From NCBI RefSeq assembly GCF_004916905.1, contig NZ_SDLV01000031.1, positions 124,001 through 188,000 on the forward strand: DNA of 64,000 nucleotides. The letters are read 5' to 3'. Below, one piece after another: positions 17,147 through 45,614 of this stretch. Both the position numbers and the translations under genes were made by a program. A model generated the notes under the pieces. It had not been told where the DNA came from. It searched no databases and saw only the letters and a list, made by a program, of their open reading frames with translations. The DNA is from Chryseobacterium candidae (GTDB taxonomy: Bacteria > Bacteroidota > Bacteroidia > Flavobacteriales > Weeksellaceae). How positions within the stretch are numbered: the stretch's first letter is position 1; every line of letters begins with the position of its first letter.

Positions 17147-17274
17147 TGTAAGCTGATTCGTCATCAATTTCTTCTCCAATTCAAAAAACTTCCCGAAATT
17201 AGCAGTCTGTGCGTTAAATACTATTCAATGAAATAAAAATTTAAATTACAACATACAGCAAAACTTAGTATAAG

Positions 17275-17396
17275 TTTTCTTCGGGGCAGGGTGTAATTCC
17301 CTACCGGCGGTTACAGTCCGCGACTCCTTTCTTCTGAAAGGACTGATCTGGTGAAATTCCGGAACCGACAGTTAAAGTCTGGATGGGAGAAGAAAA
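17275..17396 (+). promoter_or_regulatory. FMN riboswitch (RFN element)
   Basis: The RFN consensus is visible in order: TCTTCGGGGCAGGGTG, AATTCCCTACCGGCGGT, AGTCCGCGAC, a variable hairpin (CCTTTC/GAAAGG), GATCTGGTGAAATTCCGG, ACCGACAGT, and AAAGTCTGGATGGGAGA. Closing stem P1 pairs 17275-17282 with 17389-17396. It lies 94 bases upstream of ribB and is expected to bind FMN and lower ribB expression. How it acts (termination or start-site masking) cannot be told by eye; no obvious U-tract terminator stands between it and ribB, which favours translational control. Confidence 0.93.
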
Positions 17397-17490
17397 TGAG
17401 ATGACCAATAAGAGTCCTAATGGATTCTTGTTGCGTTGTATTTCATTTCCATGTACCGAAGAGTATTTTAACTTTTAAAAGTAAAATAAC

Positions 17491-41577: not shown

Positions 41578-41603
41578 GATACCCCTGAAAGATCAGAGGT
41601 ATC
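41578..41603 (-). terminator. Intrinsic terminator of the DOMON operon
   Basis: Read on the minus strand: GATACCTCTGA (41603-41593), loop TCTT, TCAGGGGTATC (41588-41578) with one wobble, then a T-rich tract. It follows the last operon gene. Confidence 0.7.
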
Positions 41604-41641
41604 TGTTAAAAAAAATATTAAGGTGGGTTCTCTGCGAAAAA

Positions 41642-42391
41642 TTATTCTTTAATCAGTTTTTCATAAGATTTACTTCCATCTTTAAACTGAATTTCAAGAT
41701 AATAACTTCCTGATCTCAGATCTTCAACACTGATACTTTCGCCTTCAGGTTTTACTGATTTCACTTTTCTTCCTGTTGCTTCATAGATATCAACAGACTT
41801 TATTTTATCAGAGTTTTTGAAATTAACGGTTGATTTTGCCGGATTAGGATATAGATTTACCTTCTTGCTATCTGCTGTAATTTCATGGGTAGATAAAGTG
41901 GCTGCCGTCATCGTTAATGTTGCATATCCTCTTCCTGCATCATGATATCCTAAAGAAGTTCCTCCACTTTTACGGGAATAGAAAATATTGATTGTTCCGG
42001 CAGCGTTGGCAATCGCAAAATCTCCTGCTCCACCTGCAAGTGATCTTGTTGCTACTACAGTTCTTGTAGATCCCGATACGGTGTTCGAAGTTTCTGTCCA
42101 GTCCTGAGATGCATCAGCTGAAGGTGTATTGGGAACTCCATTAAAAGAATAATCTCTATTGGCAGAAGCGTTATAAATAAAACCATCTGCACCGACTGCC
42201 ATTCCTATAGTTCCAAAACCTATTCCCATCATAGAGTTGCTGTCACCAGTCACTGTCATTGTTACACCTGAAGGAGTTGTATCTAATTTCACCGTCATGG
42301 AAGTTGCCGGTAGGGTTACCGTTCCTGATGAAAACTGCGCCAATGCAAAATTGGCAAGAAGTACGCTAAGCGCTAGTAGAGTTTTTTTCAT
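41642..42391 (-). CDS. DOMON-domain protein exported by T9SS
   Basis: The 249-residue product has signal peptide LLALSVLLANFALAQ. Residues ~20-165 resemble a DOMON domain: GWIGFG-like MMGIGFGTIGM, a D-x-Q-D-W segment (ADASQDWTE), TRTVVATRSLAGGAGDFAIA and a late YHDAGRGYA, the H being a plausible heme axial ligand as in other DOMON proteins. Residues ~178-249 form a T9SS type A sorting domain (LYPNPAKSTVNF, YEATGRKVKSV, GSYYLEIQFKDG). So a heme- or sugar-binding domain is displayed on the cell surface. It is last of a five-gene operon; its ATG lies 1 base after the ankyrin gene stop. Confidence 0.8.
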   Translation of the reverse strand: MKKTLLALSVLLANFALAQFSSGTVTLPATSMTVKLDTTPSGVTMTVTGDSNSMMGIGFGTIGMAVGADGFIYNASANRDYSFNGVPNTPSADASQDWTETSNTVSGSTRTVVATRSLAGGAGDFAIANAAGTINIFYSRKSGGTSLGYHDAGRGYATLTMTAATLSTHEITADSKKVNLYPNPAKSTVNFKNSDKIKSVDIYEATGRKVKSVKPEGESISVEDLRSGSYYLEIQFKDGSKSYEKLIKE

Positions 42392-42392
42392 A

Positions 42393-42917
42393 TCAATTTT
42401 TTAAAAGATTTATAATTTCCCTGTTGTTAGTTTGTAATGCATATTCGAAAGGGGTCATTCCCATTGAATCCTTCTTTGTTTTATCTGCTTTATATTTCAG
42501 CAGCTGTTCCACCAGGTCTTTATTTCCGGATTTTACAGCCCAGAATAAAGGCGTATATCCTGTTTCATCTGCAATATTGGGATCTGCTTTTTTCTTCAGC
42601 AGATGTTCTACCAGATCTTTGTTGTATTTAATGGCTAAACCTGCCAACGCTGTTCCTTCACGGCTTTTGTAGTTGACGTCTTTCACATTCTCAATCAGAA
42701 AATCTGCAACGTCTGTATTTCCTCTGTAACAGGCTAAAATAAGGGGTGAAAATCCGTTTTCGTTAACCTGATTAATAACATCCGGATTTTGTTTCATCAG
42801 TTCCTGTACTTCCGCAACCGTTCCGCTTCTGGCAACATCAAATATTGATTTTGCTTTTTCCTGAGCAGATATGAATGAGCTCAGAAAGAGTCCTAATACT
42901 AAGATTATATTTCTCAT
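42393..42917 (-). CDS. Periplasmic ankyrin-repeat protein
   Basis: The 174-residue product has signal peptide NIILVLGLFLSSFISAQ. Four ankyrin repeats follow: NENGFSPLILACYRGNTDVADFLI, REGTALAGLAIKYNKDLVEHLL, DETGYTPLFWAVKSGNKDLVEQLL and DSMGMTPFEYALQTNNREIINLL, each with the G-x-T/S-P-L-x-x-A pattern. They usually bind partner proteins. Periplasmic ankyrin proteins such as AnkB assist heme enzymes, so a chaperone role for the neighbouring heme proteins is plausible. Its start overlaps the yceI stop by 4 bases (ATGA type). Confidence 0.85.
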   Translation of the reverse strand: MRNIILVLGLFLSSFISAQEKAKSIFDVARSGTVAEVQELMKQNPDVINQVNENGFSPLILACYRGNTDVADFLIENVKDVNYKSREGTALAGLAIKYNKDLVEHLLKKKADPNIADETGYTPLFWAVKSGNKDLVEQLLKYKADKTKKDSMGMTPFEYALQTNNREIINLLKN

Positions 42918-43459
42918 TGTTTTACCATGATGTAGTTGTACTCAATATTGACATTTTCTGCCACTTTTTTGGTAACCATTTTGGGAATAGTCACTTTATA
43001 ATCTACAGGTCTTGCTACAAACCCTCCCTGCATATAGATTTTCCCGTCTTTTGCATATAAAGTGGCAGCGGAGGTAACAGCTTTGTCTACTCCATGAAAG
43101 TTTAACGTTCCCTGCACAGTATATTTCTGAGGGCTTGTGGTAAGCTTTGTTTTATCAAAGTTGACAATCTTCCCTTTAAAAGTTGTTTTTGGATATTTTG
43201 CAGATTCAGCATAGCTTTCATTGAAATGCTCTTCCATTAATTTTGTTTTAAAATGAAAGTTTTTGACATTTGAGACTGATGCCATCTCACCATTGTCTGC
43301 ATTGAGAATGACAACATTATTATCATCCTGAGCAAAAATATCATCAAACAGAGGTACTGAAGCTTCAAAAGTTACTTTCCCTGTTTTGGAGCTATATTTT
43401 TGTGCTGAAGCGTACCCGGCAGAAAGGAGTAATACGCTTAATAATGCTAATTTTTTCAT
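42914..43459 (-). CDS. YceI family lipocalin-like protein
   Basis: The 181-residue product has signal peptide KLALLSVLLLSAGYASAQ. The YceI pattern is clear: KTGKVTFEASVPLFDDIFAQ near the N-terminus, then MEEHFNESYAESAKYPKTTFKG (~74-95), YTVQGTLNFHGVDKAVT (~111-127) and VARPVDYKV near the end. YceI proteins form an extended lipocalin-like barrel that binds isoprenoid quinones or other lipids in the periplasm. Beside a cytochrome c lipoprotein it could carry or sense a quinone. Spacing to the cytochrome gene is 9 bases. Confidence 0.92.
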   Translation of the reverse strand: MKKLALLSVLLLSAGYASAQKYSSKTGKVTFEASVPLFDDIFAQDDNNVVILNADNGEMASVSNVKNFHFKTKLMEEHFNESYAESAKYPKTTFKGKIVNFDKTKLTTSPQKYTVQGTLNFHGVDKAVTSAATLYAKDGKIYMQGGFVARPVDYKVTIPKMVTKKVAENVNIEYNYIMVKQ

Positions 43460-43468
43460 ATCAATTTT

Positions 43469-43816
43469 TTAATTTTCATTTAATCCGTCGGTTTTCCATT
43501 TGATGAAAATATTGATTTGGGCAGCGGACAGAGATCCTCCCTGCGGCATTTTCCCGGGATCACCATTAGGCCTTTGAATACGATCCAGAATTCCGTCTAT
43601 ATTATTTTTTACCTGACCATAGGTAACCAGCGGTTTAAAACTCCCTGCAGAATGACAGCTTATACAGTTGTTATCTACAATTGGTTTTACATCTGCAGTA
43701 TATTTTACGGGTGTTGTAATGGGTGTATTGTCAGAAATCTCTTCATACGTTCTGCTGTCACAAGCCGTCAGTATGATTGCTGACGACAATATCAATAAGG
43801 ATGTTAGCTTTTTCAT
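43469..43816 (-). CDS. Mono-heme cytochrome c lipoprotein
   Basis: The 115-residue product from ATG 43816; an in-frame extension to 43882 only overlaps the preceding gene. Lipoprotein leader KKLTSLLILSSAIILTACDS, lipid anchor at C19. Heme c site CISCH (C51, C54, H55); the distal ligand is probably M90 in PGKMPQGGSLS, and the closing helix INIFIKWKTDGL is usual. This is the small cytochrome type with K-x-x-x-x-NCISCHS and M-P-x-G-G. It is a membrane-anchored electron carrier in the operon, facing periplasm or surface. The upstream gene stop is 1 base away. Confidence 0.9.
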   Translation of the reverse strand: MKKLTSLLILSSAIILTACDSRTYEEISDNTPITTPVKYTADVKPIVDNNCISCHSAGSFKPLVTYGQVKNNIDGILDRIQRPNGDPGKMPQGGSLSAAQINIFIKWKTDGLNEN

Positions 43817-43817
43817 T

Positions 43818-44660
43818 TTAAAAGACTCTGTAAAGGTTAAATCCAAAGAAAATATGTCCCTTTCCCCATGCTCCTGTGGCATTGGTAAGATATCCGATAT
43901 CTGAATTGATCTGGGAGTTCGTTAGTAAAAGCTGGAACACATGTCCCCCTGTTTCTATATCAACCCCTAGTGACAGTGGGTTTTTGTAAAAACTGTGATC
44001 GTCGAAATTCACAAAGTATTCTGCATTCACAGAAACTCTTTTTGAGATTTTGTAGCGTCCTCCCAACCCTGCCAGAAACTGATTCTTGTTTTCTATAGTA
44101 GGTTCGTAAAGGTTTTTATGAACGAAAGATGGTGTAAGCTGTACAGAGAGCTTATTACTGAATCTTCTTGAGATCAGTGCCTGTGTTAGATAAGAAAGCC
44201 TGTCACTGAATTTCAGATGAGGATAAGTATCTTTATCCAGTTCAGTATTGGCCCCCATTACATTGTACCCCACAATATCCACCGGGAAGTTTTCATTTTG
44301 TCTTACCAGTCTGTATTTCACGGCTCCTTCAAAGGTTTTCATATTCGTTTCTCTGGAAAGGCTTACAGATACTGCGTCTGAAATACCATAGATAACGCCT
44401 AATTTGGTGGAAGCATGATCCAGACCGAAAAAATCTTTAAATCCTGCGCTTATATCTCCAAATCTGTGGGCTACGATAATGTACCATTCTTTTTTAGCTG
44501 CCAGTTTTGTAGATTGTCCTGTTACAATCTGAAGGGCTTTAAAGGCGGGTTGTGAGGTTTCTGTATTGGTTTTAACAGTGTCAATATCTTTCAGCAGATC
44601 TTCCTGTGCAAAGACAAGACCTGATGAAAACATTGACAAAAATAAGAGAGTTTTTGTCAT
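43818..44660 (-). CDS. DUF5777-like outer-membrane beta-barrel protein
   Basis: The 280-residue product from ATG 44660 (an in-frame TTG two codons earlier is unlikely). Signal peptide TLLFLSMFSSGLVFAQ. Residues ~30-280 alternate in barrel-like strands: KEWYIIVAHRFGDIS, KLGVIYGISDAVSVSLSRE, GGRYKISKRVSVNAEYFVNF, VDIETGGHVFQLLLTNS, ending in HIFFGFNLYRVF with a terminal Phe. WYIIVAHRFGDI plus HVFQLLLTNSQ is what I know of DUF5777. First gene of the operon, directly behind a Crp/Fnr-type site; the barrel may carry the exported redox proteins or a ligand. Confidence 0.82.
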   Translation of the reverse strand: MTKTLLFLSMFSSGLVFAQEDLLKDIDTVKTNTETSQPAFKALQIVTGQSTKLAAKKEWYIIVAHRFGDISAGFKDFFGLDHASTKLGVIYGISDAVSVSLSRETNMKTFEGAVKYRLVRQNENFPVDIVGYNVMGANTELDKDTYPHLKFSDRLSYLTQALISRRFSNKLSVQLTPSFVHKNLYEPTIENKNQFLAGLGGRYKISKRVSVNAEYFVNFDDHSFYKNPLSLGVDIETGGHVFQLLLTNSQINSDIGYLTNATGAWGKGHIFFGFNLYRVF

Positions 44661-44688
44661 ATACAATTTGAATTAAATTATGATATGA

Positions 44689-44734
44689 CAAACTTATTGA
44701 GTTCTCAATTCAAAAACAGGTGATAAAAGTCACC
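44689..44734 (-). promoter_or_regulatory. Operon promoter with a Crp/Fnr-type operator
   Basis: On the minus strand, TAAGTTTG (44696-44689) is an exact -7 box; TTG at 44713-44711 lies only 14 bases from it, so the -33 element is poor. A perfect palindrome GGTGA-N6-TCACC (44719-44734) is centred about 42 bases upstream of the expected start, the class II activator position. A weak -33 plus a site there is what an activator-dependent promoter looks like. The regulator gene is adjacent. Confidence 0.72.
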
Positions 44735-44785
44735 AGTCAAATTGTTTTTATCAATAATAGAAATAAACTTTCCAAACAATTAAAA

Positions 44786-45436
44786 TTAGATCGTTCTAAC
44801 ATTTTCATTTACAGCAACTTTTATTCCTTCTTTAGTCTGAATAATTTCACCTTCGCTTTCAATTTTTTTCAAAACCCGGCTCACAACTTCTCTGGAAGTT
44901 CCCAGACTGCTGGCTATTTCCCGATGAGTGATCTTAATAGGATTGTTTCCTGTGGATGAAATCTGCTGTTTGATATAATTGAGGACTCTTTTATCCAGTT
45001 TATGAAAAACAGCATCATTCACCATATTCATCACTTCTGAAAATCTTCGGTCATATTCATGGTAAAAGAGTTTATTGATTTCCGGAAATCTGATAAGCCA
45101 TTCATGCATAATAGAGACGGGAATAAGAATTGCTTCCGAGTCTTCTTCTGCAATGGCATATACCCTGCTGATATAGTCCGTCAGAATAGATGAAAAGGTC
45201 ATGAGACAGCTATCCTTAGGTTTAATATAATAGTAGATGAGCTCTCTTCCATCATTAAGGGTAAATACCTTGATTGATCCTTTTATCAGGAAAGGAACAA
45301 ACTTATTTTTTTGTCCTTCCCTTATGATTTCAGTTTTTGCTTTTATATCAATAGCAACAGCATGTTTTTCAAGCTCAGATAAAAATTCGGCACCTAAAAA
45401 GCCAAATTTACTTATAGCGAACGAGTTATCAATCAT
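44786..45436 (-). CDS. Crp/Fnr family transcriptional regulator
   Basis: The 216-residue product has a cyclic-nucleotide-binding-like domain (~15-130; IIREGQKNKFVPFLIKGSIKVFTLNDGRELI) and a C-terminal winged HTH (~150-210; ITHREIASSLGTSREVVSRVLKKIESEG). The PGE-type ERA/SA motif for cAMP phosphate binding is not seen, and the N-terminal four-cysteine cluster of FNR is absent, so its signal is not obvious. It lies just upstream of the DUF5777-cytochrome operon, whose promoter has a matching palindrome. An own -7-like box TATATTTG precedes it (45481-45474, minus). Confidence 0.9.
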   Translation of the reverse strand: MIDNSFAISKFGFLGAEFLSELEKHAVAIDIKAKTEIIREGQKNKFVPFLIKGSIKVFTLNDGRELIYYYIKPKDSCLMTFSSILTDYISRVYAIAEEDSEAILIPVSIMHEWLIRFPEINKLFYHEYDRRFSEVMNMVNDAVFHKLDKRVLNYIKQQISSTGNNPIKITHREIASSLGTSREVVSRVLKKIESEGEIIQTKEGIKVAVNENVRTI

Positions 45437-45565
45437 ATGTTATGTTTTCTGCTTTTTCTTAAACAAATATATAAAATTGATATGTTATTACTACACATTT
45501 TTACCTTATTAAATATAATTAACAATTTAACAAGTGCTCACTATTATTCCTCAAAGTGCAAAAAA

Positions 45566-45589
45566 ATGCCCTGGTTTTTACCAGGGCAT
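45566..45589 (-). terminator. Intrinsic terminator of the DUF3467 gene
   Basis: Minus strand: ATGCCCTGG and CCAGGGCAT arms (45566-45574, 45581-45589) around a 6-base loop, followed by a T-run (plus-strand A at 45561-45566). Confidence 0.88.
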
Positions 45590-45614
45590 CCTTTATTTTA
45601 TTGTAAAAGAAATC

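Follow-up and report, generated by a model that had tools for sequence, protein, structure and literature searches.

A conserved operon of Chryseobacterium candidae that could pass electrons between the envelope interior and the cell surface

The operon and its products

The window analysed here is a 64,000-nt stretch of DNA from Chryseobacterium candidae in which open reading frames (ORFs) were called and compared with Pfam and NCBIfam profiles. It contains an operon of five minus-strand genes, preceded by a gene for a Crp-family regulator, whose products are a predicted outer-membrane beta-barrel of the DUF5777 family, a cytochrome c lipoprotein, a YceI protein, an ankyrin-repeat protein and a DOMON-domain protein with a sorting domain of the type IX secretion system (T9SS). 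The operon appears to encode a small, undescribed machine by which electrons could pass between the interior of the envelope and the cell surface. Its features are, in the direction of transcription:

44786-45436, minus strand: Crp-family regulator of 216 amino acids with a cNMP-binding-like domain and a Crp helix-turn-helix (ORF, Pfam)
44719-44734, minus strand: operator GGTGACTTTTATCACC, a palindrome GTGA-N6-TCAC conserved in the intergenic regions of the genus
44689-44696, minus strand: sigma-A -7 box of the type TAnnTTTG, TAAGTTTG, 22 bp downstream of the operator
43818-44660, minus strand: DUF5777 outer-membrane beta-barrel, predicted 12 strands (PF19089, AlphaFold2, Foldseek)
43469-43816, minus strand: monoheme cytochrome c lipoprotein with CISCH and, by eye, a candidate Met ligand in KMPQ (motif, profile)
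42914-43459, minus strand: YceI protein, lipocalin-like, exported (signal peptide by eye; PF04264)
42393-42917, minus strand: ankyrin-repeat protein, exported (signal peptide by eye; Ank_2)
41642-42391, minus strand: heme-type DOMON domain (residues ~20-165 of the model) followed by a T9SS type A sorting domain (~177-249), with M64 and H150 as candidate heme ligands
41578-41603, minus strand: intrinsic terminator-like hairpin of 11 pairs, 5 of them G-C, followed by a T-run

The ORF calls agree with a preliminary description of this DNA, which had reported five minus-strand genes (44660-41642) with gaps of +1, +9, -4 and +1 bases from DUF5777 downwards and a terminator at the end of the block. 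The hairpin with its T-run at 41603-41578 bears out the latter; the scan yielded seven terminator-type sites against 4.7 expected from shuffled sequences. The DUF5777 gene starts with the ATG at 44660, with an alternative TTG at 44666 likewise open, and the cytochrome gene starts at an ATG inside a longer ORF, whose beginning is at 43882. The 125 bases between the Crp gene and DUF5777 contain the conserved operator and promoter.

The barrel, YceI, ankyrin, regulator and T9SS labels of the same description were recovered by Pfam and NCBIfam: DUF5777 matches PF19089 with E 1.1e-85, YceI matches PF04264 with E 2.7e-10 (41.3 bits, above the cut-off of 23.7), the ankyrin protein matches Ank_2 with E 1.8e-29, the regulator matches HTH_Crp_2 (E 2.1e-09, 37.7 bits, cut-off 27) and cNMP_binding (E 2.9e-07, 30.8 bits, cut-off 27.5), and the tail of the DOMON protein matches Por_Secre_tail (E 1.7e-11) and TIGR04183 (42 bits, cut-off 23). 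Two labels are weak on the window proteins alone, namely the cytochrome (Cytochrome_CBB3 21.4 bits, cut-off 27; NF045774, cytochrome c551, 32 bits, under the cut-off of 118) and the DOMON domain (PF03351, E 0.014, 16.0 bits, cut-off 32.7). The window cytochrome carries CISCH, and all 182 cytochrome-profile genes found in the fetched loci carry a heme c motif, C-X2-CH in 163 and C-X3/4-CH in 19 of them.

Conservation of the gene set

Most loci used for comparison were fetched via DUF5777, and L064-L083, L099 and L325-L338 via DOMON; all rates are conditional on this choice. Four pairs of loci, each a single piece of DNA present in two collections, were each counted as one distinct locus. No DUF5777 ORF was picked in L239 and L261, which were excluded from the neighbourhood counts, and L099 was excluded from the Flavobacteriales set. 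Genes within four genes of DUF5777 are called near and those more than four places off far. A set of 89 distinct loci comprises other Flavobacteriales together with named non-Chryseobacterium records.

In the genus, Crp, YceI, ankyrin and DOMON genes are near DUF5777 in all 35 distinct loci. ORF calling yielded the cytochrome in 33 of them, and the remaining two (L083, L141) hold it according to a six-frame search. The C. defluvii DSM 14219 locus, L132, contains all six genes. All five neighbours are likewise present in the 11 loci of related genera, so that the six genes stand together in 35/35 and 11/11 loci and are not scattered in the family, as the proposal of a coherent module had implied. 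A Crp gene is found within four genes of DUF5777 in each of these 46 distinct loci. The named relatives of the barrel with 79-98% identity all belong to Chryseobacterium.

Farther out, the set contracts. Among the 89 loci of other Flavobacteriales the cytochrome is near the barrel in 85, YceI in 78, both in 76, and ankyrin plus DOMON in 15. Corresponding numbers are 16 (cytochrome), 13 (YceI) and 10 (both) for 19 loci of the same class, and 16, 16 and 14 for 19 loci of other Bacteroidota classes. Far genes of the same loci carry cytochrome, YceI and the other labels in at most 1% of cases. The core across the phylum is DUF5777, cytochrome and YceI; ankyrin and DOMON form a separable cassette. 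DUF5777 matches occur in 181 of 296 genomes of the order and in 82 of 198 sampled Bacteroidota genomes. In the 39 family genomes listed in both surveys, DUF5777 and DOMON are both present in 30 and both absent from 9, and outside the family DUF5777 accompanies DOMON in 15 of 16 genomes. Because of the kinship among the genomes, the counts are not independent events.

That the genes encode unrelated surface proteins which are merely co-regulated has the smallest chance of the explanations considered. Such an explanation would allow for the varying gene order outside the family and for the 13 of the 89 loci that, by ORF calls, do not have both cytochrome and YceI near the barrel. It is opposed by the almost complete lack of these families among the far genes, by the all-or-none presence in the family, and by gene fusions described below.

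Several further proteins were encountered beside the module. PF12869, a small OB-fold-like membrane protein, is near DUF5777 in 77 of the 89 loci; this tRNA_anti-like partner of about 130 residues is membrane-anchored and occurs outside the window's family (e.g. L202:899-1291). Secreted-repeat lipoproteins of the PF03640 type lie near the module in L103, L111, L119 and L155 (by Pfam in L155 only), and by eye the end of the L119 protein is cupredoxin-like. The C. candidae genome contains another DUF5777 match, a weak one of 28.5 bits (L003, C51:21812-22228).

The barrel and the cytochrome

The AlphaFold2 model of DUF5777 has 12 strands, with a mean predicted local distance difference test (pLDDT) score of 82.3 and a predicted template modelling score (pTM) of 0.78, and its Foldseek neighbours are NanC, OmpG, FapF and KdgM. 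Solved relatives sought with the sequence profile yielded none under E 0.4. By strand parity, the invariant residues R66, K115, Q160, R202, D234, Q243 and N275 face the lumen, and H65, H240 and R278 face the lipid. The invariant His65 and His240 had been considered as heme ligands of the barrel, an idea that was dropped because strand parity turns both towards the lipid.

In L246 and L309, which belong to two families, a CX4CH cytochrome domain is fused N-terminally to DUF5777 in one ORF. The L309 protein matches the cytochrome profile with E 9.6e-6; the cytochrome part of L246 is weak (12 bits) and was recognised mainly by its motif. Among the ORFs examined, fusions are known only from these two loci, and the window genes are separate. 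In L267, the cytochrome-DUF5777 pair is accompanied by a six-CXXCH protein, an EB_dh b-heme lipoprotein, a 4Fe-4S protein and NrfD. The best Pfam match of the six-CXXCH protein is Cytochrom_c3_2 (9.9e-8), and it scores 28.5 bits against the MtrC/MtrF domain model (cut-off 30).

Operons that combine the pair with further redox proteins were also noticed in L312, L315 (G112) and, with parts of the L267 set recognised by eye, in L237, L252 and L253; together with L267 they contain a hexaheme or ethylbenzene-dehydrogenase-like b-heme protein, a 4Fe-4S protein, NrfD and a class I cytochrome. Operons of the L267 type possibly encode an undescribed respiratory complex. L250 has a heme-copper-oxidase-family protein (PF00115) with a small cytochrome c, NorBC-like in look.

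The main rival to an electron path is that DUF5777 forms a channel for a solute or a metal chelate and that the cytochrome, YceI and the surface protein serve uptake through metal reduction or ligand binding, which would make the operon an acquisition system. The closest folds, NanC, OmpG and KdgM, are channels, and the lumen is conserved, polar and, by strand parity, largely basic. In many Flavobacterium-type loci the Crp gene is replaced by a gene resembling that of a sigma factor (by eye), together with FecR and an 844-residue TonB-dependent receptor, which the module follows, and proteins combining DOMON with cytochrome b561 are reported to reduce ferric and cupric ions (PMC10784544). However, the linkage of cytochrome and YceI to the barrel holds in many loci without a nearby receptor, and the cytochrome-barrel fusions and the multiheme/NrfD context of L267 favour redox chemistry. 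We regard an acquisition system as rather unlikely, yet as the alternative to be taken most seriously.

The surface protein and its ankyrin neighbour

That the last gene encodes a DOMON protein, as had been suggested in the preliminary description, was confirmed by a fold search. PF03351 is found at E <= 0.01 in 26 of 33 DOMON sequences, the window protein being among the other seven. Its AlphaFold2 model (pLDDT 85.2, pTM 0.60; best Foldseek E-value 2e-4) aligns over residues ~20-170 with the DOMON domain of dopamine beta-hydroxylase (DBH) at Z 13.8, with the cytochrome domain of cellobiose dehydrogenase (CDH, 1d7b) at Z 12.8, with the cytochrome b of pyranose dehydrogenase at Z 12.6 and with the gamma subunit of ethylbenzene dehydrogenase at Z 10.8. 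The tail (residues ~177-249) aligns with the T9SS cargo domain 8glk at Z 10.5; together with the TIGR04183 match this substantiates the export tail, and SprA_N (E 3e-151) places a T9SS in the same genome. When solved relatives were sought with the DOMON profile, matches below 0.01 fell only in the T9SS tail.

M64 and H150, together with D69, are invariant in all 16 DOMON domain sequences, and in 33 full-length proteins H150 is present in all and M64 in at least 90%. A Met/His pair is reported to coordinate heme in CDH and to be missing from sugar-binding DOMONs and from DBH (PMC10691727); M64 and H150 were matched to the CDH ligands by region, not by superposition of residues. The motif around the heme Met is given as SXDXXMGXD in the same report, to which M-x-x-G-x-D of the window protein bears a partial likeness. 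A plant DOMON-cytochrome b561 protein with the Met/His pair is described as a ferric/cupric reductase (PMC10784544). Conservation and fold thus suggest a heme-type DOMON with candidate Met/His ligands that presumably carries heme.

A surface DOMON could also feed electrons to secreted enzymes such as lytic polysaccharide monooxygenases (LPMOs), with YceI and the cytochrome as a relay. The Cellvibrio proteins Cbp2D/E are a precedent, Cbp2D combining a YceI-like ubiquinone-binding domain with c-type cytochrome domains according to the accounts available (PMC8981238, PMC12542752), and the C. candidae genome encodes one LPMO10 (L339, C15:23969-24490). Since LPMO10 occurs in just 4 of 55 genomes, and 42 of the 46 genomes with the DOMON protein lack it, LPMO supply was rejected as the general function, and we consider this explanation very unlikely.

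In the main sample the ankyrin gene adjoins the DOMON gene in 66 of 67 loci, or 62 of 63 distinct DOMON genes. In Campylobacter, trafficking of heme to catalase is reported for the ankyrin protein Cj1386 (PMC9426514), and because of this report it is proposed, by analogy, that the ankyrin protein loads heme into DOMON. The same two observations could speak for a module that handles heme or oxidative stress, in which heme or peroxide rather than electrons would be the substrate and ankyrin and DOMON would scavenge or buffer heme. Against this stand the operon's content, in which Pfam finds no HmuY, peroxidase or catalase, and the core outside the family, which consists of cytochrome, YceI and barrel with the ankyrin-DOMON pair nearby in only the 15 loci of 89 mentioned above. 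Such a role is improbable, less so than LPMO supply.

Regulation

Fifty upstream regions were compared, 39 of them from the genus; L083, in which two genes lie between Crp and DUF5777, was omitted and is the one fetched genus locus where Crp is not immediately upstream of DUF5777. The 14-base core of the operator is identical in 37 of the 39 genus intergenic regions and has one change in the other 2. A variant altered on both sides, TGTGACTTTTATCACA, is found in L077 and L079. The 11 upstream regions of other genera do not have the same core, and related palindromes are visible in some. In all 39 genus promoters a TAnnTTTG box begins exactly 22 bp after the operator; the 38 promoters from outside the window comprise 34 distinct sequences, and shuffles that preserve base composition only place a -7 box at a spacing of 20-24 bp in 0.7% of cases. 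TAnnTTTG is the sigma-A -7 box of F. psychrophilum and extends from -12 to -5 (PMC9723704); nothing on the present genes was found in the accessible part of that transcriptome study. With the box at -12 to -5, the operator centre therefore lies near -42. This is the position of a class II Crp activator. The geometry supports the earlier suggestion of regulator control, and the operon is probably switched by its own neighbouring Crp-type regulator through this predicted site.

The regulator had been called Crp/Fnr. The Pfam domains uphold a Crp-type protein directly upstream. Oxygen sensing of the FNR type requires an iron-sulfur cysteine cluster, and as the regulator has a single Cys in 216 residues it possesses no FNR-type iron-sulfur site and is not a sensor of that type. 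In the relatives L064, L066, L067, L068, L070, L073, L077 and L078, extra genes lie between DUF3467 and Crp, encoding proteins of ~720 residues (TonB receptor-like), ~187 residues and, in most, ~156 residues. The corresponding interval of the window (45437-45614) is without them.

A wider Crp regulon was sought from the motif alone and discarded: GTGACNNNNRTCAC has 27 matches in five genomes compared with 32 for a control pattern, which is not significant. The exact pattern GGTGA-N6-TCACC occurs once in the C. candidae genome and is not enriched; since the control pattern is equally frequent, its frequency is no evidence. Three of the five genomes have a perfect palindrome, GTGACATATGTCAC, in front of a TonB-dependent receptor gene (L277:1501-1514, which is C40:88888-88901 of C. 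candidae, L289 and L285); it might be another site of the Crp-type regulator, a lead only. In RNA sequencing of iron-limited Riemerella, ankyrin- and YceI-labelled genes were reported as up-regulated (PMC5429918); because their locus numbers are far apart, the data are uninformative on this operon. Elsewhere in the window, a flavin mononucleotide riboswitch was found at 17273-17398 on the plus strand (121 bits).

Proposed mechanism

We favour, with a probability of about 0.5, an envelope-spanning redox path in which a split, Cyc2-like porin-cytochrome gate cooperates with YceI and a surface b-heme DOMON. The reading draws on the linkage of cytochrome and YceI to the barrel, the L246 and L309 fusions, the redox neighbourhood in L267, the DOMON fold with its ligands, the T9SS tail, the co-inheritance of DUF5777 and DOMON and the operator-promoter geometry. 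The gene set, its conservation, the folds, the conserved candidate ligands, the fusions and the operator-promoter geometry were computed; heme occupancy, the cargo of YceI, complex formation, electron flow and its direction, the substrate and the sensed signal we infer.

A relative of the YceI domain is reported to bind quinone or polyisoprenoid (PMC8981238). YceI would pass reducing equivalents, carried as bound quinone, on to the cytochrome c lipoprotein, which at the outer membrane would dock at the periplasmic mouth of the 12-stranded barrel, in a geometry that the L246 and L309 fusions suggest. The barrel would let electrons or a small carrier through. The exported ankyrin protein may help to load or hold the heme of DOMON before the T9SS delivers the b-heme protein to the cell surface, where it would exchange electrons both with the cytochrome/barrel and with a partner outside the cell. 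Its most likely role would be that of a surface reductase of ferric or cupric chelates or of a diffusible oxidant. The neighbouring Crp-type activator would turn the operon on from the operator at about -42.

Several points weigh against this mechanism. A 12-stranded barrel is too narrow to house a cytochrome, and from one heme at its periplasmic mouth the surface is beyond the reach of direct tunnelling, so that a diffusible carrier or substrate borne by the pore would be needed; the distance from heme to surface is the weakest link of the mechanism. The nearest folds, NanC and KdgM, are anion or sugar channels, and the conserved residues of the modelled DUF5777 lumen would suit such a channel too. 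Chryseobacterium species are aerobes, for which reason dissimilatory extracellular respiration is not expected. In a second sample of 14 loci outside the family, fetched through DOMON alone, the ankyrin gene stands next to DOMON in only 7. DUF5777 is missing from the four-gene neighbourhood in five of these (L327, L328, L331, L332, L338), and in L331 and L332 ankyrin and DOMON are encoded on opposite strands.

More tentatively, and with less confidence than in the redox path of the operon, a gate of DUF5777 and a monoheme cytochrome c, usually with YceI, may be common to the phylum Bacteroidota and independent of Cyc2 and Mtr; some lineages would cap it with a surface redox protein delivered by the T9SS (b-heme DOMON here, cupredoxin elsewhere), and a dedicated periplasmic ankyrin protein would load the DOMON heme. 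A T9SS-tailed protein is encoded on the same strand within four genes of DUF5777 in 30 of the 89 loci, with DOMON in 13, cupredoxin in 6, DUF2271 in 6, lamin-tail in 4 and another domain in 1; cupredoxin or lamin-tail proteins directly adjoin DUF5777 on the same strand in 10 loci. On the same strand, the tail is present in 30 of 455 near and 9 of 274 far genes (p 0.06); on both strands the numbers are 44/688 and 13/594 (p 2e-4), and 29/673 and 12/593 with DOMON excluded (p 0.025).

The wider proposal meets objections of its own. The remaining 59 loci have no such neighbour on the same strand, and the four lamin-tail neighbours carry a non-redox domain. With DOMON excluded, the same-strand comparison falls to 17/442 near versus 9/274 far (p 0.84). 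Genes with a T9SS tail are frequent in these genomes. An interchangeable T9SS slot at the barrel is thus not borne out by the rates once DOMON is left aside, and an apparent enrichment of 30/455 same-strand near over 13/594 either-strand far genes (p 4e-4) was rejected as mixing strand rules. Because the enrichment vanishes without DOMON under one strand rule, a general surface slot is only a suggestion; the link between DOMON and the barrel is solid.

Of the preliminary description's idea of a regulated surface redox or heme module, the gene set and the DOMON fold have stood and the regulator control is supported; it had overlooked the phylum-wide core, the separability of the ankyrin-DOMON cassette and the barrel-cytochrome fusions.

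Comparison with known systems

Pfam gives DUF5777 no function. In the open-licence part of PubMed Central that was searched, no paper names DUF5777, none combines YceI, cytochrome c, outer membrane, Bacteroidetes and electron transfer, and one mentions DOMON, type IX secretion and cytochrome together. New here are the two natural cytochrome-DUF5777 fusions, the ankyrin-DOMON pairing and the Crp operator 22 bp before the -7 box. Should DUF5777 prove to be a redox gate, a large environmental phylum would have its own outer-membrane electron route, and the T9SS would serve to bring redox proteins to the surface. With so few genes, and with two natural fusions, the idea is directly testable.

Among heme- and DOMON-containing systems, the CYBDOM ferric reductases and the CDH cytochrome domain share the DOMON fold, the Met/His pair and the location at the cell exterior (PMC10784544, PMC10691727); the present operon differs in the lack of a cytochrome b561 or flavin partner and in export by the T9SS. 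In Cellvibrio Cbp2D/Cbp2E, too, a YceI-like domain occurs with c-type cytochrome domains in a redox protein that is secreted (PMC8981238, PMC12542752), but they are linked to cellulose, the available descriptions mention no barrel or DOMON, and LPMO10 is rare in the genomes studied here. As in the Cj1386-KatA pair (PMC9426514), an ankyrin gene adjoins the gene of a heme protein, whereas here the neighbouring gene encodes a surface DOMON and an export signal (by eye) is present on the ankyrin protein.

MtrCAB and MtoAB also consist of an outer-membrane barrel with periplasmic and surface heme proteins, but they employ multiheme cytochromes and a 26-strand barrel (PMC8406198), in contrast to the one CXXCH of the cytochrome and the 12 predicted strands in the window; among the closely inspected loci only L267 has a six-heme neighbour. 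The closest likeness is to Cyc2 of iron oxidizers, in which one c-type heme is likewise placed beside an outer-membrane barrel and whose domain order is that of the L246 and L309 fusions. According to the account available (PMC8406198), the Cyc2 cytochrome is viewed as a plug in the periplasmic mouth of its barrel, and Cyc2, also with a single heme, is predicted to act on dissolved iron. Cyc2 is 16-stranded and fused, whereas here 12 strands are predicted, the genes are separate, the barrel belongs to PF19089, and YceI, ankyrin and T9SS parts are added. By the features tested the module is a member of neither the Cyc2 nor the Mtr group, and it may work in a porin-cytochrome-like manner.

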